Assembly: GCF_963675165.1 (NCBI RefSeq)
Contig: NC_087377.1
Coordinates: 7,519,122 to 7,583,121, forward strand
Length of the DNA stretch: 64,000 nt
Reading direction: 5' to 3'
DNA from: Halichondria panicea
Lineage: Eukaryota; Porifera; Demospongiae; Suberitida; Halichondriidae
Shown: positions 10,227-42,304 of the stretch, piece by piece
Layout: every line of letters begins with the position of its first letter
Numbering within the stretch: the stretch's first letter is position 1
Translations under genes and position numbers: made by a program
The notes under the pieces: model-generated
Database searches by the model: none
What the model was told of the DNA's origin: nothing
The model's input: the letters and a program-made list of their open reading frames with translations, nothing else

Positions 10227-13200
10227 CTACCATTTAGGTTCATATCGATCCACAGTCTTACGGTTACGCTTAGGGTATACTTTAATCGCAGTTGCAGGTT
10301 TTGAGACAACACCTTGACTAGGGACGTCGACAGGTGGTTCTACACCAACTTCAGGTGAAGGGGAGCTGTTTCCAGGAGTACTATCAGCTTGAGGTGCATA
10401 CGGTGTGGTCAATTCGTCAGGAAGAATTGCATTCGGAATAGGGACCTCTTCTGGCTCGGTAGGTTCGTCTACTGTTCGGTTCCGAACCTGGTCCACATGA
10501 CACCTTCGCACTTGACCATTCTGCATCTTCGCTCGAAACGATACTGGTCCTGTCTTTTCCTGTATCACACCCGGTAACCAACGATTTCCTGACTGGTAAT
10601 TTCTGACATACACCAGATCTCCGGGCTCAAAACTTCTTTCGCGAGCACGGTTGTCGTGTTGTTTCACCTGTTTTGCTTGTTGACGTTCAACTCTCTCTGC
10701 TGTGTTCGGTTTAAGCAGATCTAGACGAGATCGTGGTCGACGACCTAACAAAAGTTCACTTGGGGATTGTCCAGTGGTTGACTGTGCAGTTAACCTGTAA
10801 GCAAATAACACCGTTGCAAGTCTACTGCGCATCGAACCTTTTGTTTCCTTCTTAAGTCCCTTCTTAACTACTTGCACTGCTCGTTCAGCCAGGCCATTTG
10901 TAGAGGGGTGATAAGGGGCAGACAGAATTTGGTTGATACCATTTTTCTTCAGGAATCCTTTGAATTCTGCACTAGTGAAACATGTGCCATTGTCAGACAC
11001 AACACACTCTGGTAGGCCAAATTGAGAAAACAAAACCCGTAGTTCTTCGATCACTACTCGGGATGTCGAGCCAGATGTTGGAATTGCTTCAATCCATTTT
11101 GAATGGGCATCAATGATAATCAAAAACATTTGTCCGTGAATGGGACCAGCATAATCGATATGCAATCTGGCCCACGGGCGTGTAGGCCAAGCCCAAGGAT
11201 GGAGTGGAGCAACAGGTGGTTTTGACTGTTGTTGTTGACAGGGAATGCAATCTTGTACCATCTCTTCGACGTCTTTCGAAATACCAGGCCACCACACATA
11301 CATACGCGATAGTCCTTTCATGCGAGTGGTGCCAGGATGTCCTTCGTGCAGTTGTACGAGCACATCACCTCGGTAGGTCTTGGGTACCACCACACGATTT
11401 CCCCACAGCAAGCAACCATCATGTACTGAAAGTTCTTCTCGTCGCTCATAAAAGGGCATTAGACTGGTTTCCATGGCGGAACGGTGTGGCCATCCTTGTT
11501 GCACATACTGGTGAATAGTAGAGAGTTCTGGGTCTCGTCTGGTAGCCTCTTTGATATGTGCAGCCGTGATCGGTGAGGAATCGAGATGTTCCAGTAAGAG
11601 CACCAGTTCTGGTGGTGTTCGGTCATCAGGAACAGTGTCAGTTAAGGGCAGACGACTCAAAGCATCTGCATTACCGTGAGCTGTAGTGTTTCGGAACTTC
11701 AGCTCGTACTCGTACATCGACAGTGCCAATGACCATCGACGAATCCTTGCGGAGGCTTGTAATGAGGTTGGTTTCTGTCCACTCAGCAGGCTCAATAACG
11801 GTTTGTGATCCGTAATTAGAGTGAATTTTCGACCAAATAGGTATGCATAGAATTTCTTTACTCCGAAAACACAGGACAGTCCTTCCTTTTCAAGCTGCGA
11901 GTAATTTCTTTCAGCCGAATTCAAAGTCCTAGAAGCATAGGCTATCGGTCTCTCGGTACCATCAGGCATTTGGTGAGCAAGTACGGCTCCAATTCCGTAT
12001 GCAGAGGCATCGCAGGCCAGAACAATAGGTAATTGGGGGTTGTAATGAGCTAACAGATTTGTTGATGTCAGCAGCTGTTTCGACCTGTTAAAAGCAAGTT
12101 CTTGCTCAGATGACCATTCCCATGGCACATCTTTGTTTAACAGCTTGTACAATGGTGTTAAGCGAGTGGCTAGATTCGGTAGGAACTTCCCATAATAAGA
12201 AATCAATCCAATGTAGGACCTCAGTTCCGTCACATTGGTAGGGGTAGGTGCTTGCTGGACAGCACGGACTTTCTCAGGTAAGGGTCGGATACCCTTAGCG
12301 TCAACCAGGTGACCCAAAAACTCGACAGATGGAGCCATGAACGTGCACTTGCCTCGTTTGGCTCGCAAACCAGCTTCGGATAGGCGTTTCAACACTTCCT
12401 CGAGTGATTTCAGGTTCTCCGCTTCGGTTGCACTAGAGATCAAAATGTCGTCCAAATACACCACTACCCCAGCAATACCCTGTAGCAGGGTCTCCATGGT
12501 CTTCTGAAAAATGCCAGGGGCTGATGACACTCCAAAAGGTAATCTCGTGTATTGGAACAACCCTTTTAGGGTGTTGATTACCACATAGTTCTGAGATTGG
12601 GTGTCAAGCTTTAACTGTTGATAAGCTTGTGTCAGATCTAATTTAGTAAAGATCTTTCCGTCAGCCAGGGTTGCAAATAAATCTTCCACCTTCGGCAGGG
12701 GGTAACGATGGAGTTTAGAAACGGGGTTAACTGTCATTCGGAAATCGCCACATATTCTCACACTCGTTCGATCACCCTTTAACACTGCCACAATTGGTGC
12801 GGCCCATTCAGCATAGTCCACGGGCTTCAGAGTGCCTTCCTGAACCAGCCTCTCCAGTTCCTCTTCAACTTTCGTTCGCATAGCATATGGAAGACGTCTG
12901 GCTTTGTTAAAACGGGGAACAGCATCAGCGTCCACTACAAGGGAGGCTTCTTGTCCCTGGTACGTACCCAGTCCTTTCTGGAACACATCGGGGTACTTGG
13001 CCAGTAAGTCCTGTAAACCTGGAGCTTGGGTATAGTGAATGTTAGACCAATTCAACTTAATAGCATTTAGCCAGTTCCTGCCAAACAACAAAGGTCCATT
13101 CCCTTGAACAACAACAAGAGGTAAGGTCACCTTTTTGTTATCATACACAACCTCAACATCAAAACTTCCCATTACTACAAGGGGTTCCTTTGAGTAGGTC

Positions 13201-14219
13201 TGTAAGTTGATATCAGATGGGTCTAAGCTCCTCCCTGGCCACAACTGTTTGTACTGTGACTCTGATACTAGAGATACTGAGGCACCTGTGTCTAGTTCCA
13301 TACACACAGTAGTACCCTCTATACTCACGGGTACTTTTATTGGGGGCTGGTAGATCCTGTGGATTCCTCCAACTTCTTCTACCATCAGCAGGAAGTCTTC
13401 GTCATCTGATTCTCCAGACTCTCTTGCTTGGTTTATTCCAGCCCTTTTCTTATACTTGTCATGTCGGGGGAACTTCTTCGGGTTTGGGCGTCCCTTGGCA
13501 GCTCGACACATCTTTTGCAAGTGTCCCACTTTATGACATCCTCTACACACAAAGTCCTTGTACGGGCAGTCATTGCCACTGTGACTCGTCTTGCCACATC
13601 GATAACACTTCGAGTTAGTTTTAATCGGTTTCGGCGTCTGTTTCTGGACGTAATGTACTCCTTCTTTATGGGATTCGCTTCCCATCTCACGAAGGTTCTT
13701 CTCTGCAGTCTCAGAACCTTGAGTAATCTGAATAGCCGTAGCCAATGTCAGCTCTCGTTCTGCTAGCAGCTTCTTCTGTATGTAGGTGTCCTTGACTCCC
13801 CACACTAGCCTGTCACGTAGCACTTTGTCCAATGCAGCACCGTAATTACAAAATTCGGCTAGCTTCCTCAGCGCAGCTACATAGTCAGCAATAGACTCTC
13901 CTTCTTTCTTCGCTCTAGAGTTGAATCGGAAACGTTGCATGACTTCGGTAGGCCTCGGACTGTAGTGTGCAGTAAGCACTTCCACCAGCTCCTCAAATGT
14001 TTTCTCTGCAGGCCTTGCTGGTGCAATTAGACTTCGCAGCAGATTGTAGGCACTACGGCCCACTACTGCGAGAAAGGTAGCTCTCTTCTTCACAGCACTA
14101 CCATCTCCAGTGATATCGTTCGCAACAAAAAACTGTTCGAGTCTCTCCACATACTGCGGCCATTCCTCCAACGCTGGATCGAATTGCTCGAGGTGCCCAA
14201 GCAGTCCTGTAGCCATCAT
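10227..14219 (-). CDS. Gypsy gag-pol polyprotein, 1330 aa
   Basis: One uninterrupted frame. Gag capsid-like region about residues 1-190. Two CCHC zinc knuckles: C205-C218 (CYRCGKTSHSGNDC) and C225-C238. Aspartic protease DTG at 310-312. Reverse transcriptase about 430-620 with catalytic YLDD at 588-591 and the first Asp near 528. RNase H about 730-860 (ACDAS, TDH). Integrase zinc domain with H958, H961, C991, C994. DDE residues D1022, D1076 and E1112 in HIDYAG, SDNGT and NGLAERAV. All key residues are present, so the element may be competent. Gag and Pol share one frame with no visible shift. The C-terminal tail lacks a recognised chromodomain. Confidence 0.95.
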   Translation of the reverse strand: MMATGLLGHLEQFDPALEEWPQYVERLEQFFVANDITGDGSAVKKRATFLAVVGRSAYNLLRSLIAPARPAEKTFEELVEVLTAHYSPRPTEVMQRFRFNSRAKKEGESIADYVAALRKLAEFCNYGAALDKVLRDRLVWGVKDTYIQKKLLAERELTLATAIQITQGSETAEKNLREMGSESHKEGVHYVQKQTPKPIKTNSKCYRCGKTSHSGNDCPYKDFVCRGCHKVGHLQKMCRAAKGRPNPKKFPRHDKYKKRAGINQARESGESDDEDFLLMVEEVGGIHRIYQPPIKVPVSIEGTTVCMELDTGASVSLVSESQYKQLWPGRSLDPSDINLQTYSKEPLVVMGSFDVEVVYDNKKVTLPLVVVQGNGPLLFGRNWLNAIKLNWSNIHYTQAPGLQDLLAKYPDVFQKGLGTYQGQEASLVVDADAVPRFNKARRLPYAMRTKVEEELERLVQEGTLKPVDYAEWAAPIVAVLKGDRTSVRICGDFRMTVNPVSKLHRYPLPKVEDLFATLADGKIFTKLDLTQAYQQLKLDTQSQNYVVINTLKGLFQYTRLPFGVSSAPGIFQKTMETLLQGIAGVVVYLDDILISSATEAENLKSLEEVLKRLSEAGLRAKRGKCTFMAPSVEFLGHLVDAKGIRPLPEKVRAVQQAPTPTNVTELRSYIGLISYYGKFLPNLATRLTPLYKLLNKDVPWEWSSEQELAFNRSKQLLTSTNLLAHYNPQLPIVLACDASAYGIGAVLAHQMPDGTERPIAYASRTLNSAERNYSQLEKEGLSCVFGVKKFYAYLFGRKFTLITDHKPLLSLLSGQKPTSLQASARIRRWSLALSMYEYELKFRNTTAHGNADALSRLPLTDTVPDDRTPPELVLLLEHLDSSPITAAHIKEATRRDPELSTIHQYVQQGWPHRSAMETSLMPFYERREELSVHDGCLLWGNRVVVPKTYRGDVLVQLHEGHPGTTRMKGLSRMYVWWPGISKDVEEMVQDCIPCQQQQSKPPVAPLHPWAWPTRPWARLHIDYAGPIHGQMFLIIIDAHSKWIEAIPTSGSTSRVVIEELRVLFSQFGLPECVVSDNGTCFTSAEFKGFLKKNGINQILSAPYHPSTNGLAERAVQVVKKGLKKETKGSMRSRLATVLFAYRLTAQSTTGQSPSELLLGRRPRSRLDLLKPNTAERVERQQAKQVKQHDNRARERSFEPGDLVYVRNYQSGNRWLPGVIQEKTGPVSFRAKMQNGQVRRCHVDQVRNRTVDEPTEPEEVPIPNAILPDELTTPYAPQADSTPGNSSPSPEVGVEPPVDVPSQGVVSKPATAIKVYPKRNRKTVDRYEPKW

Positions 14220-14247
14220 AGAGTTCTAACTCCTCGTCGCCAATTTA

Positions 14248-14723: not shown

Positions 14724-15887
14724 TTAGTATTTCCAAAGAACTAAAAAGCCAACACTTGTTAATCTATTTTACAGATGGTCTTATGCCCTTACATACAGTA
14801 CTTTATTAATTGGATATTGCCTGTTTGGTTGGACTTAGTTGTGCTGTTTTGGACCTAACTTTGCTGTGGGAACCTGGCTTAAAATCGAGAATCTATGTAT
14901 GAATGCTGAAAAACAGTGACATCACAGAAACAATAATTAAGATTACAAAGCATCAATAGTGAACAAACCACAAACATGATTGTTACATAATCACAACCGT
15001 ATAGCGGGTAATTTTCGTACAAAATTCATTCAACACGGTGATTTTCAGGAGTAAAATTTTCATTGCCTGCACTGCATTGAGGCTAGTTGAGCAACATATC
15101 GGAGCTTTTAAAGTCCAATCACTGTGCTTTTGACGGTTTTTGCTAGCTTTTTTCTTTTTTGCAGACCATATTCATCGACCTTTTTCTTTGCGTAGCTTAT
15201 TCTAAATCAGTTATAGGCCTCGTCAGGAGTACATTAAGAGAAGTATCCAACTATGGCAGTTGTAGTGTAAACCAGGTTACGGTACGAGTATGTCATACTA
15301 ACGTCACTCTCAAACCGCATTAAGTGTGTGCGTAGGTGTAGTGGTTAATTAGTTAAAAATGATATCAACATACACACATGTGGTCTGCCGTGGCTTGTAT
15401 ACCTCCAGCCCACATTTGACTTTATTTATGGCTAACAGTTTACACAACTAAAAGTGAGTGTTAGTGCTGGATTCAGTCTTAGATGTAGAATAGAATGTGC
15501 ATGGGAGTTGCATACTACTCTTCTTAATGTACTCCTGGCCTCGTCCAATGGTTTCTACGCTATTTGAAACCCTCAGGCCTTCCGGTCTGTGAGTTAGCGT
15601 AGAGACTTCGAGTACAAGCGGGTATTATGAGACATCAAAATGTTTTGACCCCCTTCTCTTGTAGTATTCTTGAAAGAGCAACCTATAGTATGCTCACTAA
15701 CAATGTAAGTTAAAAAATCTAGTGACAGTGCTTTGTGCTAGCTAAAATCGAAAGCACCGCGGGTGGAACTTGAACATTTATACTGCATGGGAATCTGGTA
15801 CAAACGAGTGGGAAATGATCGACCATGATAGTTGCTAAAAAGGATGCCAAAAGTTCAAAGTCCATACCGTATAGCAGGTAATTTTCG
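14724..15887. other. Repeat-rich gene-free stretch
   Basis: No exon seen. A short dispersed repeat CCGTATAGCGGGTAATTTTC occurs near 14998 and again near 15867 directly at the copia junction. Relatives are at about 34412 and 63250. A TTTTTCTTTTTTG tract lies near 15150. Confidence 0.4.
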
Positions 15888-18766
15888 TGGGATCAATCTG
15901 CTCAGTGTTTCCAAGGCATCTGAGGCTGGGAAGGTAACTCAGTTTGATGAGGCTGGTTGTCGGATTTTGAATGCTGATAGCAAGGTTATAGCAACGGCGG
16001 TTCGGTGTGGTAGTCTTTATTTTCTCAACTGTCAGTCCCTGGAAAAATCCAATGTTGCTGAAGATGTTTGGCACAAACGTTTTGGTCATTTAAGTATTGG
16101 AAGTTTGAGACAGTTGGCTGCTGATGGTCTTGTTGACGGTTTTAACTTTGACAAATCCAAGGAGATTGTTTTCTGTGAGTCGTGTGTTGTGGGGAAGCAC
16201 CACAAGAGCCCCTTTCCCGTCGGTGGTGGAAATGGAGCTAAAGAACCTCTTGGACTGGTTCACACTGATGTGTGTGGCAAGGTTAACGCTAAGTCGATTG
16301 GTGGTGCGGAGTATTTCTTAACGTTTGTGGATGACAAGACGAGGTATGTGTGGGTGTATTTTTTGAGACGCAAAGATGAAGTGTTCTCTCGTTTTTTGGA
16401 GTGGAAAGCCATGGTGGAGAAAGCAAGTGATCGGAAGTTGAAGGTATTGCGCTCGGAATGGCGGTGAGTACATGTCAATGAGGTTCAAAGAGTATTTGAA
16501 GGCAGAAGGAGTCACTATGAACTCACCGTTCCTAAGACTCCTCAACAAAATGGCACAGCCGAGCGACTAAATCGTACATTGGTGGAGATGACACGGTCTA
16601 TGTTGGTTGGTGGTAATTTATCTCAGAGGCTTTGGGCGGAAGCCTTGTCTACGGCGGTGTATTTGAGGAATCGAAGTCCATCCAAAGCAGTGGAAGGGAT
16701 GACCCCTTTTGAGGCATATCATGGGAGAAAGCCGAGTGTTGAGAATCTCCGTGCGTTTGGATGTGTTTGTTATGCCCACATAGCAAAAGATAAGAGGAAG
16801 AAGTTGGATCCAGTTGCTAGAAGATGTGTCCTTGTTGGCTATGGCACTGAGGTGAAGGGCTATCGCCTGTATGATTCAAATCGAGACAGGGTTTTTCTAC
16901 AGTCGTGATGTAAAGTTTAACGAGTCAGCGTTTGGATTTGAGAAGGGCAGTGAACCTGAGCTTTGTGTCCAGTTTGATTGTGACGTCGATTCCGGTGGTG
17001 ATGTGTCCGATGGTGATGTTGCCGATTGTGATGTGTCCGATGGTGTTGATGTGTCCGATGGTGATGCTGCCGATGGTGTTGATGTGTCCGATGGTGATGC
17101 TGCCGATGGTGATGTGTCCGATGGTGTCGATGTGTCTGAGCCAGTTCTTAGAACGTTGCAGAGAGTCAGACAAAGGCCGAACTACTACTTAGAAGGAGCT
17201 TCTATCGCTACGAGCAGTATTGAGGAACCAAGTTCTGTCCAAGAAGCTGTAAACAGTCCAAACAAGGCAAAGTGGGAGCAGGCCATGGAATCGGAGATGA
17301 GATCACTTAAGGAGAATGATGTTTGGGAGCTGGTGAATTTGCCAGAGAATCGGAAAGTCGTGGGTAGCAAATGGGTGTTTAAAGTGAAAGTTCACGGTTG
17401 TGTGGATCGTTATAAAGCTAGATTGGTGGCACAGGGTTTCTCTCAGACCAAAGGAATGGACTATGATGAAACATTCTGTCCTGTTGTTAGGATGGAGTCG
17501 TTAAGGGCCATTGTTGGATTGGCTGCTCGGAATGGTTTGAAGCTACATCAGCTTGATGTCATCACAGCTTTTCTAAATGGCAAATTGGACGAAGAAGTGT
17601 ATATGAGACAGCCTGAAGGTTTTGTTGAAGAAGGTAACTTGGTGTGTAGACTGAAGCGAAGTTTGTATGGTCTCAAACAGTCTCCACGATGTTGGAATTC
17701 GGCTCTGGATGCTCACCTAAAGAAGTTAGGCTTTCTGCAGAGTAACAGTGACCCCTGCATCTATGTGGCAGCAATTGACGAGTTGATGGTTGTTGGTGTG
17801 TATGTAGATAATCTCGTAATCGGATGTAAGTCGGACGAGCGGTTGACAGACCTCAAGAGAAAGTTATGTTCAGGCTTTGACATGAAAGATCTTGGAAAGC
17901 TGCATCATTTTCTCGGGTTGAAGGTTATACAGGATGAAGAGTCTGGAAATGTATGGATTGGTCAACCTGCGTATGTTGAGAAGGTGCTGGTGAGGTATGA
18001 AATGAAAGATGCTAAGAGTGTTGGAACCCCTGTTGATGTGAGTGCTAAGCTTGTGCGTGCTGGTGACGGTGAGGGTGATTTGTTTGATTCCGAAGTGTAT
18101 CGATCGGCTGTTGGCAGTTTGTTATATGTGTCTACTGGTACTAGGCCTTATATTGCTTTTGCAGTGAGTATGGTTGCAAAATTCTCTTCTAAACCAACGA
18201 AGCAGCACTGGCAGGGTGTAAAGAGAATTCTCAGATACCTCAAGGGTACAGCTGATCTTGGACTACTTTACAGAAGGAGTGATGCTGAGGAGCTAACAGG
18301 CTAATCAGATTCTGACTGGGCTGGGGACCTGGACGACAGGAAGTCAACCTCTGGATATATGTTCATGTTAAGTGGTGCTCCTATCAGCTGGAAGAGCAGA
18401 AAGCAGAGTTCAGTTGCACTTTCAACAGCAGAGGCTGAATATATTGCACTTTCAAGTGCTACACAGGAAGTAATGTGGCTCAGACGTTTACTTTCGGAGT
18501 TAAATTGTGCACCACAAGAAGCTACAGTTATGAACGAGGACAACCAGTCAGCGATTGCAATGGCACAGAATACTGTATTTCATGGAAGATCGAAGCATAT
18601 CGACTTACGTCACCACTTCGTTCGTGAACAAGTTGTCAAGTACTGTAGCAGCGATCAGATGATAGCAGACATGCTGACCAAAGGACTTACCCAAGTCAAG
18701 TTTGAGAACCTGAGAAACATGGCTGGAGTTGTTCCCATTATCAAGCAAATTGAGAAGGAGTGTTAG
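15832..18766 (+). pseudogene. Copia pol remnant (integrase, reverse transcriptase, RNase H)
   Basis: Copia order is clear: NLLSVSKASEAG, then GAG-pre-integrase WHKRFGHLS, integrase HTDVCG, reverse transcriptase (WVFKVKVHG, QLDVITAFLNG, GLKQSPRCW) and RNase H (STAEAEYIAL, SKHIDLRHHF). It is dead in several ways. A 2-nt loss at about 16455 removes the Asp of the DNGGEY motif. A 1-nt loss at about 16508 follows. An extra T sits in the T5 run at about 16891. A TAA at 18302-18304 replaces the Tyr of GYSDSDW. The reverse transcriptase catalytic motif reads YVDN (17801-17812) instead of YVDD. The first residues encoded from 15832 are not copia. Confidence 0.9.
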
Positions 18767-36446: not shown

Positions 36447-37245
36447 TATGCCTCGGTGTGCATGCGCAAGCGAGGCCCGGTATACGGTAGTGTGTTTGTG
36501 TGTGTGTCTGTCTGTACTGTGTACGTGTGTGTGTGTGTAGACTGCTACAGCTGCACAAGGATCAATGAAGTGTAAGTAAGAGTTTCTATAGGCTTCCAGT
36601 CATGGATTTTAATTCGTGGATTTGCAAAAGTTAATAATGCTTCGTTCTTGAGTTATGCCTAGTTTTGCTTACTTGGAATGCCATTGCAGCCTTTTCAGAA
36701 GAGCACGTAGCCAAACTTGTTTACCGATTATTGCTACTCTACTTAGTAGTTTTGCTCTGCACTAGAACTCTAGCTATTGCTAGCTGCAAGATATTAAGAG
36801 TGAGAAGAGAGCTGCAAGGCTCTGCTGACTTGCTAGTTGGGCGTGGCTCGACCGTCCCCTGACGGGAGGTCGGGTTGCAAGCCTATCTGGGATTTGTTCT
36901 ATCAAATTGCAGCATTTTTCACGTGCTTGGTTACAGTTCAACAGAACAAATCCCAGATAAGCTTGCAACCCGACCTCCCGTCAGGCCACGGTCGAGCCAC
37001 GCCCAACTACTGACTTGCAGCCATTAATTTTAGACTTGAACTTTTGGCATCGATCATTTTTAACAACAATCATCGTCGATCATTACCCACTCGTCGAGTT
37101 TCTGGATTTTGCATGCAGTAAAATTAAAAATGTTCATCATGATAATTATAATCAATATTATGTGTATAAAAGCTAGCTTAGTAGCTTTATGTTATGTAGC
37201 TTTGGCACCTCCACCGAGGCATCAGCACCTGCGGTGCGATATCAG
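36447..37245. repeat. Dispersed repeat R, copy 1, with nested MITE
   Basis: Begins TATGCCTCGGTG, has a TG microsatellite (about 50 bp near 36490-36540), continues TTTGCTTACTTGGAATGCCA... and ends CACCTCCACCGAGGCATCAG. Other copies are at 55432-55905 and 58054-58795, with a related piece at 55280-55431. CACCGAGGC at one end is complementary to the GCCTCGGTG at the other, so R has short inverted ends. Confidence 0.8.
36834..37009. mobile_element. 176-bp MITE with 9-bp target duplication
   Basis: TIRs of about 65 bp beginning TAGTTGGGCGTGGCTCGACC. CTGACTTGC flanks both sides (36825-36833, 37010-37018). Inserted in repeat R copy 1; the other R copies lack it. Confidence 0.9.
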
Positions 37246-37763: not shown

Positions 37764-39140
37764 TAAACTCAAAGAGTTGTGTGTATAAACCTGGCACTGG
37801 TGCTGGTGGGGTGTTAATATCTAAAATCAATTAGCCAAAAATCAAATTCTTGCCGTTTTGATTATTTAATGGCCAGTGTAAAGGCTTCTGTTTATTGTAC
37901 ATGTACATACTTCCTGTCTACTATAATTACGCTGACACACAATGCTTTTAACATACAATTGTACATGAATCAACAGTACAGTACAGTATAGGATATTGTG
38001 ACACAGACTTAGTATTATCATAGATGTAGGAGAGAGGGATTGGAAACGGAAGTGGGCCTTGGAAAACATTCGCGCCTCGCTTTCTTGTCTTCTTTTCTTG
38101 CCTCAAAAGTAAGGAGAATATGCAGAGCTAGTGGTATTGGATACTTGTTTCACAGTAGATATAAAATCATCAGAGGATGCTTAGTTCCCTGAAATTGTGA
38201 ATGTATTTGTGACTGTCAGAGGCTTCTCTTTTGCTGCCAACTTAAATGAAAAAGAAAACCATCAAGAAGTCCACTAGTTTGAGGCAATAACCATGATCAT
38301 TCACATGACAAGATACATAATACACCATGTAAGTTATGTTTTCACTTTTGATGAATCAATTGTACGAAGTTTCTACTAGGCTGGTGAGCATACATTTCAA
38401 TTTCCAATTCGATCATTAAATAATAGTTAGACACTGTTTAGGAGGTGTCTAACTATGGAGTTTAAGGAAGTTAAACGGAGTTAATGGGGCGGAGCGTAGC
38501 CTCCACGCCACACACACCTCCTAGCAAACATTATCTCGTGCTGGGCCTTATCACTCCGGCGCAGGCCTCGTGGTGAGATTGGCTGAGCAATATAAAATTT
38601 GGACTGCTGTCTTCGCTGTTTCCCTCCCACCCATTTTCCCCTTTTTTTTTTCTTTTTTATTGTAGTTACTTCTAATTTTCTCCGGTATGTTCATACCGTG
38701 ATGGGGCACCGTAGGAGGGGGCTCGTAACCTAGCTACTCACCTAATTTATTCCCTCGTCCTGGGATTAATGATATTCATTGACCCAAAATTAACAGCAGG
38801 GAATTTGCAGCTAATCATATTCATAGACAGCCTCCTCCTACGCTGCTCCACCCCTCCAACTCCCCATAAGGCTGATGGGTAGTTGAGGGTATTATACCGC
38901 TGATTGACGCTTCGGAGCGTAGCCAACATTAACATTTAGATTTTTTTTTTTTAGCCTTTATGGCGAAACGAGTAGGTAAGGTAAGTACAAACGGGTAGAC
39001 AGATATAAATCGAAATCTAAGTAAGGTAAAGATATGAAGAACAAACTAGCATATAGTACTAGATACTAGTGCGCATGCGCAAACTCACTATTCATGTCCT
39101 CAAGGCCTTCCAGATGCCATGACTACTTAGTTAGTATAGT

Positions 39141-40762
39141 ATGGAAGAAGCTACGAACGTGTCTACTAACCTTCGAGAGTTCTTTAATACTGAAATTTAC
39201 AACTTCCTTGAAGAAACTCCACCCAAACTTAGGCCTACTTCCTCCACTACCAGCCCCTCCCACTCCATGGAAGCTGAAGTTGACAAGCTTGTTGTGCAAT
39301 GCAAGAGGGAGAATCTGGAACAAGAGCCCACTGCTAAGAGATTGAAGCTGCAAAAAAGAACTTTTGCCCCCAGAAAAACAAATGAAGAGATAGAGAAGGC
39401 TAAACTTGGTGCCATCCCGCAGAAAACTTTGCAGGTAAGGTTGCATGCATTGGTATATAGATATAATTATTATTATGCTTGAGATAATTATTATATGCTA
39501 TTCTTTTATGCTCAAGTTAGCCAATATTAATTATTCTCATAATTGTTATAAAGGTGCCTACATAATTCTCACAAAAAAAAATTGTGCCTAAAACTCTAAA
39601 TTATGCCAGCATAATCTACCAACTCCTATACTTGTAGGACACTGCATATTGCGTACGAGTGTGGAATGAGTGGTGCCAACATCGACTGAATGAGTGCAAC
39701 GAGCAAATACCACCACTTTCTGAGCTACAACCCATGGAGCTAGCTTCCTACATGCGTTGTTTTGTGTTCGAAATAAGGAAAAAAAACGGAAAAGAATTTC
39801 CTCCTAATACGCTATACCACCTTGTTTGTGGAATTCAGAGGCACATGAGATTTTGTGTAAAATCTAGCATTGACATCTTCAACGACGAAGTTTTTTTCCG
39901 ACTTTAGAGCGTGTCTGGATGCTGAAATGAAGAGGCTACAGCAAGAGGGACTCGGATTTGCATCAAGAAAGGCCGAACCACTAACTGAAGAGGAAGAAGA
40001 GTTGCTTTGGACGAAAGGTCTTCTAGGAAAACACTCGCCACAAACGTTACTCGACACCATCATTTTCATGAATGGTGTGTACTTTGCACTCAGAAGTGGA
40101 AAGGAGCATAGGCAACTACGGGCAAACCCATATGCCAGATTGCTATACACGAGAGGCCTGGACAGCGGTCTCTCTTAGAATACAGAGAAGACGTCTCAAA
40201 AAATCATTCTGGTGGTCTTAAGGGACGAAAAACAAAGCCGAAAATTGTTCAGCACCATGCGAACACTGCCTCCCCAGAGAGATGTTTTGTTGCACTTTTT
40301 AAGCTCTACGAAAGTCTCTGTCCACCAGATCGACCTAACAATGCTTTATACTTGAAACCGCTGTTACATCCTACGTCTTCATGCTGGTTCTCCATTCAGC
40401 CTCTTGGCCACAATAAACTGGAGGGTACAGTTTCTTGGCTTTGTACAGAAGCAGGAATCCCAGGTTTTCGGACCAACCATTCACTTCGTGCCACAGCAGC
40501 AACCAGGTTGTACAATGCTGGAGTGGAAGAGCAACAAGTGATGGAAATAACAGGACATCGCAGCACAGAGGGTGTACGCAATTACAAACGCACATCTAGC
40601 GCCCAAAAGCAGCATCTATCTGACATTCTTAACTGCCACGAAACATCCAACGCTCCAACTAACATTACATCTCAGTCTCTCAACATGTCCTATTCTGCAG
40701 TTCAAGTTCCTACATTTAACTTTCAATCTTGCACAGTTAACTTTTACAACACTCCCAAGTAG
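39141..40762 (+). pseudogene. Crypton/KIAA1958-type tyrosine recombinase, two exons, two frameshifts
   Basis: Exon 1 is 39141-39433 (ATG, Lys/Glu-rich N-terminal part, donor GTAAGG). Exon 2 starts at 39639 after CTTGTAG with DTAYCVRVWNEWCQHRLNEC, the core-binding region. The catalytic domain follows: RSGKEHRQLR (first Arg), LEYREDVSKN, GGLKGRK, RCFVALFKLYESLCP, then HSLRATAATRLYNAG (HxxR), ITGHRS and a Tyr in VRNYKR. So the R-HxxR-(G)H-Y set is complete. This is the DUF3504 family shared with KIAA1958, ZMYM2-4, QRICH1 and Cryptons. Two breaks: one extra T in T7 (39891-39897) and one C missing in a C3 run (40127-40129). Both are at homopolymers, so sequencing error is possible. Stop at 40760-40762. 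Confidence 0.82.
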
Positions 40763-42000
40763 ATTATACCAACTTCCAGCAAGTAGAAACTATTATTTTA
40801 GCTAGCTTTATTATAATAATGTATGCTTATTAATAATAATTTATTATCTCATGTGAAATCTTGTAATTTATGTAAAACTTGTAGGTATACTAAGTAAGTT
40901 GGCAGGTATACTAAGTCCCATAGTATACCTGCTCTGAGGCACTTTTCCCATGTACTTCCCATGTAGATCTTATCTACTAGTGTCTAAGTATAATTACATA
41001 CACTTGCATGGAGACAGCAAAACACTCCACAGCACTGCCAGTTGCTTTTTAAGTGTAAAACGAGTGGGATCAAACCGAACAACATTAACAAAAACTTACA
41101 TGATAAAAATGATTATTATAGCTATAAGTTTAGCACTCTAATCAGACAGTCTTAGATGGAGAGAAGCTGGTGAGGTATACAAGGGTGTATATATAGCCGG
41201 AACAGCCGATAACATTTACGAGGGTGGTGACGTGTAGGGGTGTAGAGAGGAGGGGTATTCTTTTGTCTTCTTTTCTTCAGCGTACTCAGTAAGTTTCGGC
41301 TTGCGAGGTATTGCTATAAAATATAGATGAAACAGCATTTGTAGTAGATAAATAATTATCTCGGGCCCCTTCACCACAATCTACTACCGGGCCAATAACA
41401 ATTATGAGGTAAAAATAGGTGACTACACATTCATGCACACAAAAGTTATACATCCACCTAATCCAAAACTAATGCTCTTGGGGTGATCACCAATCATAAG
41501 GGAATGTATGCCTAAAATTTAAATTTCTGTAACGCTTAGCGTATTCCCAAAAAAGGGATCTTTAGTGGTGCTCTTTAATTCAACTTTTTTCTAGCACTAA
41601 ATTCTACCAGCTGATGTATGACTAATTTTCTTTGGCTTGGGGTGATACCACATGATTTACCAACAAGCATACTGAAGTATACGACCTAAACATTAATCAT
41701 TTCAGAGAAAAAGGGATAAATGTGTACAATACAAGATTAAACTTACCTAAATTCAATGAAGAAGATAGTTGCAACGGTAAATAGAGCTTGAACAGTGGTT
41801 ATTCACTATCTATATAAAGCACAGTTGCACTGGATACTGGAGAACTTGACAGAATACTAGTGACAACTCAGAAAATCCTAGATTTGCAATAATCTCAGTT
41901 ACCCGCGAAGTTCCTGGGGAATAGATTAGCCATCATTAGGCGAGGCGCGGATGTTTAATCGAGGTCATACGTGAGGTACATTGAAATCTACTTCCGTTTC
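40763..42000. other. 3' part of the 4-kb TIR element, non-coding
   Basis: No further frame recognised. A short repeat GGTATACTAAGT occurs twice near 40885-40915 and its inverse follows at 40920. Confidence 0.4.
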
Positions 42001-42304
42001 CAATCCCTCTCTCCTACATCTATGGTATTATGTACTTTCCCACTTACACATACATGTGTAAGTGAAAAGTACATAATAATAATAATAAATAAACAATGTC
42101 ATTGTATTCAAGCACAGAGGTTTCTGACATGTATGTATAGCTTCCTTCACTGGAATCACTGGACAACTACCAGACTTGCTGATACGTGTGACCATACCCA
42201 CAAAAAGGAGATTACAAAACAGCTGTTAATTTACGTATCACACATGAAAATATCACAGACAGCATTACTTGGTCTACACACTACGTATGTATTATAGCCC
42301 TCAC

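Follow-up and report, generated by a model that had tools for sequence, protein, structure and literature searches.

A Crypton with its own ends and target, related to families with long upstream hairpins, nested in a putative non-autonomous P-superfamily element of the sponge Halichondria panicea

The window, a 64,000-nucleotide stretch of Halichondria panicea (C1:7519122-7583121 of the G000 genome, 131 Mb in 39 contigs), carries a unit of 4,006 bp in total that is bounded by perfect terminal inverted repeats (TIRs) and a 7-bp target duplication and that holds a tyrosine recombinase gene. The original prediction offered two explanations, either insertion of a Crypton into a non-autonomous TIR element that then moved, or an association that a recombinase has formed with TIR ends. 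We conclude that the unit is a nest of two unrelated mobile elements and not a new kind of TIR element, which settles the TIR-plus-recombinase puzzle. We have high confidence in a nested pair of unrelated mechanism, in which a non-autonomous P-superfamily element encloses a Crypton with its own ends and target and, probably, the remnant of a long hairpin. The features are as follows.

38012..38018, no strand: target duplication GTATTAT of the outer element, left copy
38019..38053, + strand: left outer TIR, 35 bp, perfect
38019..38419, + strand: outer element (putative non-autonomous P superfamily), left part, from alignment to the ~1.55-kb copies
38411..38414, no strand: GATC, not in the other outer copies compared, an unexplained 4-bp difference by the junction (outer-copy alignment)
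38417..38419, no strand: target TAA, repeated directly at 40985-40987 (comparison with the empty site)
38420..40987, + strand: Crypton, 2,568 bp when DNA inserted later is counted; both ends common to locus L058 and a 314-bp family, flanks differ
38420..38434, + strand: left attachment end ATAATAG-TTAGACAC (shared-end comparison)
38426..38453, + strand: probable collapsed remnant of a long hairpin, GTTAGACAC ... GTGTCTAAC, with the middle apparently missing (against the 314-bp consensus)
38455..39059, no strand: other repeat DNA within the Crypton, 605 bp, unaligned to L058
39141..39432, + strand: probable first coding exon, from sequence
~39433-39637, + strand: probable GT...AG intron, from sequence
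39638..40762, + strand: tyrosine recombinase coding region, a QRICH1-like domain followed by DUF3504 (frames, Pfam)
40902..40932, + strand: hairpin with a 12-bp stem close to the right end, present in the 314-bp family as well (consensus self-match 229-259)
40980..40987, + strand: right attachment end GTGTCTAA (shared-end comparison)
40988..42024, + strand: outer element, right part, from alignment to other copies
41990..42024, - strand: right outer TIR, 35 bp, perfect
42025..42031, no strand: target duplication GTATTAT of the outer element, right copy

The motifs quoted in the original prediction lie in a frame at 40112-40762 that matches Pfam DUF3504 (PF12012, E=6.7e-17) and Phage_integrase (PF00589, E=4.6e-10). 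The gene called there is not intact, as one frameshift near 39.9 kb and another near 40.15 kb disrupt it. The catalytic R, HxxR, H and Y are all present in the window frames, within ALRSG, HSLR, TGHRS and NYKR; the corresponding columns match in L053 and L054. R-H-R-Y is the catalytic set given for the Crypton recombinase in the available text of PMC3212892. The longest (216 aa) of the 22 frames of at least 60 aa in the element is the recombinase's, and a Pfam scan of four frames found no DDE transposase inside the element. The genome holds 109 recombinase matches, with frames open from the first methionine at L053 (492 aa), L054 (506 aa), L067 (492 aa) and L074 (522 aa). The closest sister, L058, matches the window copy at both ends and over two long pieces, which are 99.2% and 92.8% identical, and its flanks differ. 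Comparing flanks, as the original prediction had suggested, places the Crypton boundaries at 38420 and 40987. The inner element is a Crypton. Its 605 bp of other DNA contain two different repeats that are present elsewhere in the genome (38455-38932 and 38941-39058), the second drawing about 27 of 44 repeat matches (40 of 248 candidates scored).

The outer end was searched as a 31-bp pattern with up to three mismatches in the whole 131-Mb genome, giving 160 matches versus none for the pattern read backwards, so it is not a chance match. From the matches listed (100 of 160), 34 TIR pairs were assembled by eye, and 20 were fetched (L031-L050), 18 with the window-type end and two of a shorter ~0.5-kb type. 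The usual copy is about 1.55 kb long (1,545 bp in L038). Alignment of the window copy to this form stops at 38410 and resumes at 40985, and the window copy is without a short stretch after about position 89 that other copies have. Where the window copy breaks, CATTAAGTATAATTAC runs uninterrupted in 17 of the 18 window-type copies; the 18th, L039, is diverged at the site and has no Crypton. The recombinase is found at other loci with its own conserved ends, and outer-type TIRs (up to five mismatches in 25 bases) are absent within the 29 sister loci L052-L080, examined over 1.5 kb on each side of the recombinase match. Among the 34 TIR pairs, compared by eye with the 109 recombinase matches, only the window's encloses one. 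As far as the matches listed go, this is the outcome that the original prediction had named as refuting it. Of its two explanations, the jump of a Crypton into a TIR element holds: the fetched window-type copies have no Crypton at the site and the Crypton ends are its own.

The order of the two insertions is a separate matter. A Crypton that inserted first could have been carried here within the 4-kb composite as cargo of a P-type transposase; the intact outer ends and perfect duplication would fit. No second composite occurs among the 34 TIR pairs from the matches listed, and we regard this order as quite improbable; the clause "then moved" of the original prediction gains no support. That prediction also took a paralogous segment near 905-940 for the uninterrupted flank. 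It is indeed a diverged paralogue (GTAATAT versus GTATTAT) and makes a fair empty site for the outer element, so it indicates insertion of the outer element only and does not show that the 4 kb entered in one step. Next to this flank, at 930-1110, is a foldback whose tip, CGAGGGCGTAAGCCCCGAAGG, resembles the tips of the Crypton hairpins described below. A Crypton within DDE-type TIR ends has a likeness in MarCry-1_FO, a Crypton fused with Mariner. According to the available text of PMC3212892, MarCry-1_FO has four copies more than 97% identical and the Mariner transposase is held responsible for transposition, whereas the window unit is a single copy in which no transposase was found.

The perfect 35-bp TIRs and GTATTAT on both sides were correctly called in the original prediction, and wider arms of 41 bp are 95% complementary. 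Besides the window's, a 7-bp duplication with at most one mismatch flanks 17 of the 20 fetched copies, and the commonest letters, window included, are G-T-T-A-G-A-C, a GTNNNAC-like pattern. P-superfamily target duplications of 8 bp also occur. The P-type transposase domain PF21787 (RNase H part) has 46 genome matches, and the end CATAGATAAAAGAGAGAGAGGGATTGGAAACGG has 14 at up to two mismatches. All eight PF21787 matches with the top, repeated score (92.4 bits) have this end ~1.2-1.7 kb upstream in the right orientation, with no mismatch in seven and two in one. A complete P-type copy (C1:8776756-8781415, 4,660 bp, L120 plus L125) has both 33-bp ends (the right one with three mismatches) and GTTTTAC on each side. 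This family and the window's outer family have about 34 terminal bases in common at 88% and are alike only at the ends. Because these ends are common with elements that encode a P-type transposase, the outer element classifies by sequence as a non-autonomous P-superfamily transposon, probably mobilised in trans by a P-type transposase. It resembles Galileo, a P-superfamily element with a P-type transposase and 7-bp duplications of consensus GTAGTAC in the available text of PMC2775673, and differs from it in being non-autonomous and in having 35-bp ends of another sequence. Two observations weigh against the assignment. The duplication fails in three of the 20 fetched copies (L031, L033, L038), and of four P-type transposase loci fetched, such an end is present in L120 and L121 and was not recognised in L122 and L123.

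Frames of at least 90 aa in the longer outer copies L031-L037 yielded no transposase; none exceeds 309 aa, and the Pfam scan covered the 309-aa frame of L031. This frame (L031:3733-4659, + strand) encodes an Ulp1-like peptidase and a PHD finger and likely belongs to another nested element. Besides the transposase frame, the P-type elements at L120 and L121 have another frame that converges on it (L120:3767-4396 and L121:3796-4593, both - strand). Identity between the two proteins is 35% across 215 aa, and Pfam gives nothing above the cut-off. Possibly a transposase is split across two strands here.

The second explanation of the original prediction, in which the TIR ends (CATAGATG) would be recognised and mobilised by the tyrosine recombinase, draws on nothing beyond the co-location of the two. 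Within the matches listed, outer copies have spread without the recombinase, their ends go with P-type transposases, and the Crypton has different ends and a target of its own. We therefore reject this candidate as extremely improbable.

Both Crypton ends recur in a gene-less family of 314 bp (ATAATAG...GTGTCTAA), sampled at 38 loci picked by their right end, which make up all of the 40 places found except the window and L058. On the left a flank yTAh is followed by ATAATAGTTAGACAC; on the right GTGTCTAA ends in CTAA in 33 of 36. The target consensus is yTAh^N6-tTA. TA occupies positions -3,-2 in 28 of 30 left flanks. On the right, 16 of 32 flanks have TA at +8,+9 (p=2.5e-8 versus positions further out, uncorrected and for an offset picked after inspection). 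Both counts omit L089, L090, L110 and loci without a clear end. The short terminal direct repeats are TAA/TAA in the window, by comparison with the empty site, and yTAh/CTAA in the 314-bp family. A genome-wide search for the left end including ATAATAG gives 174 matches when one mismatch is allowed, and there are 94 exact left ends of the short derivative. A distant Crypton family (L077, L074) has the ends GTGTGGTATAA and TATACCACAC, with a 10-bp inverted match.

Two head-to-tail arrays with different flanks (L089, L124) contain the inner junction GTGTCTAA-ATAATAG-TTAGACAC, in which 8-bp inverted arms surround 7 bp. Judged by its sequence, this junction has the look of a tyrosine recombinase site, for which arms of usually 11-13 bp around 6-8 bp are described in the available text of PMC3212892. 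At some junctions in the genome, for example CTAGTAACTAA-ATAATAG, this left end seems to follow an L053-family right end, so that Cryptons may use one another's ends as insertion targets. Against reading the arrays as traces of a circle, insertion beside a resident end could also produce them.

The 7-bp spacer is distributed asymmetrically. In the right-end-picked sample, ATAATAG is present at 33 of 34 left ends (exception L118), two further left-arm matches (L088, L108) being the opposite hairpin arm, and follows the right end in one of 36, which is the L089 tandem junction. Genome-wide, the left arm has ATAATAG at 75 of the 100 places listed among 116 matches. The other 25, sorted by eye, comprise five opposite hairpin arms (L130, L135, L137, L142, L144), four places inside another repeat (L126-L129), six one base off ATAATAG (L138, L140, L143, L160-L162) and ten with other sequence (L131-L134, L136, L139, L141, L145, L159, L163). 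With the opposite arms and the other repeat set aside, 81 of 91 left ends among the places listed are within one mismatch of ATAATAG and ten are not. If both strands were exchanged across a 7-bp overlap, one would expect to see the two spacer arrangements. The reciprocal resolution, with the target spacer at the left end and ATAATAG at the right end, was sought at the 25 places and not recognised; the expected right end was fetched for 15 and recognised in six, none with an exact ATAATAG (L164 has ATAATAT). The asymmetry is strong but not absolute and could stem from single-strand exchange, biased repair or an exchange point off the spacer edge.

Folding with DNA parameters predicts a stem of ~137 nt at the left end of the 314-bp family, with an energy of -53.1 kcal/mol (z -15.9) that none of 200 shuffles equalled, and the joining point lies 5-7 bases outside this stem. 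Hairpins of ~85-175 nt (RNA parameters) also occur upstream of the gene in the L053 group, L054, L057/L065, L063, L068/L069, L076 and L077, and z-scores reach -15.2 in L077, -12.5 in L075 and -16.5 in L052. These families have no mutual nucleotide match (at least 80%, over 120 bp), and their stems differ. The strongest hairpin seen is that of L077 (-114 kcal/mol), which is mostly missing in L074. With RNA parameters and 1.5 kb upstream of the recombinase match, a 150-nt stretch at or below -63 kcal/mol occurs at 16 of 27 loci. Downstream the number is 3 of 27, and among segments of the window it is 3 of 42; the set of loci omits L072 and L079, which overlap with L058 and L070. Upstream versus window segments gives a Fisher p=3e-6, which overstates independence because the loci are related. 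At a threshold of -70 kcal/mol the numbers are 12 upstream, 2 downstream and 2 window segments. A tip motif, CGAG-N(4-10)-CGAGG, is found in 11 of 19 hairpin segments and twice on both strands of the 64-kb window, where shuffles predict 0.8. It lies within 5 nt of the computed centre in seven of the 11 and is 17-26 nt off in four, for which the computed helix is probably too wide. In an alignment of 14 left ends, pairing is kept through changes on both sides in 9 of 53 pairs.

Because the 314-bp family has no gene and yet keeps the hairpin, a role in movement rather than expression is suggested, and we infer that the left-end hairpin is a cis-acting part of the recombination site. Several observations count against such a role. 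Eleven of the 27 Crypton loci have no strong upstream hairpin, several of them appearing 5'-truncated, and L067 has none despite its 492-aa open frame. The hairpin of L073, among the 16, lies immediately beside the gene match, at position 1276 of 1500, and the best hairpin of L062 is a second one at position 1, the terminal one reaching -73.1. Most of the double changes separate two groups and thus represent few events. The middle of the hairpin is lost in L086 and in the window copy, which is without most of it.

The long hairpins could instead be by-products with no part in recombination, either foldback insertions or inverted duplications that gene conversion keeps similar, as palindromes can be homogenised and other foldback DNA exists here (36834-37009 and 930-1110). 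We find this somewhat unlikely. Families without mutual nucleotide match each carry a hairpin upstream of the gene, its start coincides with the attachment repeat in families whose end is known, the gene-less family retains it and the tip motif recurs on different stems.

Given the ends, target, nesting, joined-end sequence in tandem arrays and hairpins, all directly observed, the following course is the most likely. The outer ~1.55-kb element would be moved in trans by a P-type transposase, leaving a 7-bp GTNNNAC-like duplication. The Crypton recombinase would excise the Crypton as a putative circle joined through GTGTCTAA-ATAATAG-TTAGACAC, which would insert into a loosely palindromic target, with yTAh to its left and N6-tTA to its right, and leave 2-4-bp direct repeats (TAA in the window). 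We speculate, while considering it unlikely, that the enzyme acts on the folded single-stranded left-end hairpin like integron integrases. The strand asymmetry of integration, with the element spacer nearly always at the left and target sequence at the right, would then look as if only one strand were exchanged and the remainder made by replication. Integron attC sites are similar in being imperfect palindromes with little sequence conservation that fold from one strand and recombine with a strand bias through a tyrosine recombinase. According to the available text of PMC8946536, attC is cleaved within the site, unlike the Crypton, whose joining point is at the hairpin foot, outside the stem.

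The Cryptons described here are like animal Cryptons (CryptonA) in their DUF3504 tyrosine recombinase (R..HxxR..H..Y) and abundant non-autonomous derivatives. In the available text of PMC3212892, terminal repeats of animal Cryptons were not found and boundaries were difficult, whereas the present analysis defines a long hairpin along with inverted attachment arms and short direct repeats. "Hairpin" and "palindrom" have no occurrence in the main text of that paper, and no description of Crypton hairpins was found in open-access titles and abstract openings, a search that most subscription journals fall outside. Salmon Crypton derivatives resemble human Eulor5/6 repeats (PMC5753468, available text) and an annotated mouse pre-miRNA consists of Eulor5A (PMC3495686, available text), a faint hint that hairpins may extend beyond this host.

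Cryptons gave rise to the conserved animal genes ZMYM2-4, QRICH1 and KCTD1 (PMC3212892, available text), and the movement of animal Cryptons has been opaque because it was difficult to define their ends. This genome offers a nested insertion with an empty site, ~100 or more copies of a short derivative, open recombinase frames and joined-end arrays, which open the Crypton reaction to base-level tests. Should the hairpin prove to be the substrate, eukaryotes too would possess single-strand site recombination.

Elsewhere in the window, a 176-bp palindrome (36834-37009) has arms 83% alike, and its best 150 nt fold at -95.9 kcal/mol; none of the recombinase matches listed lies there. Two polyprotein frames, named from their Pfam domains, are Gypsy-like (10230-14225, - strand) and Copia-like (15832-18301, + strand).

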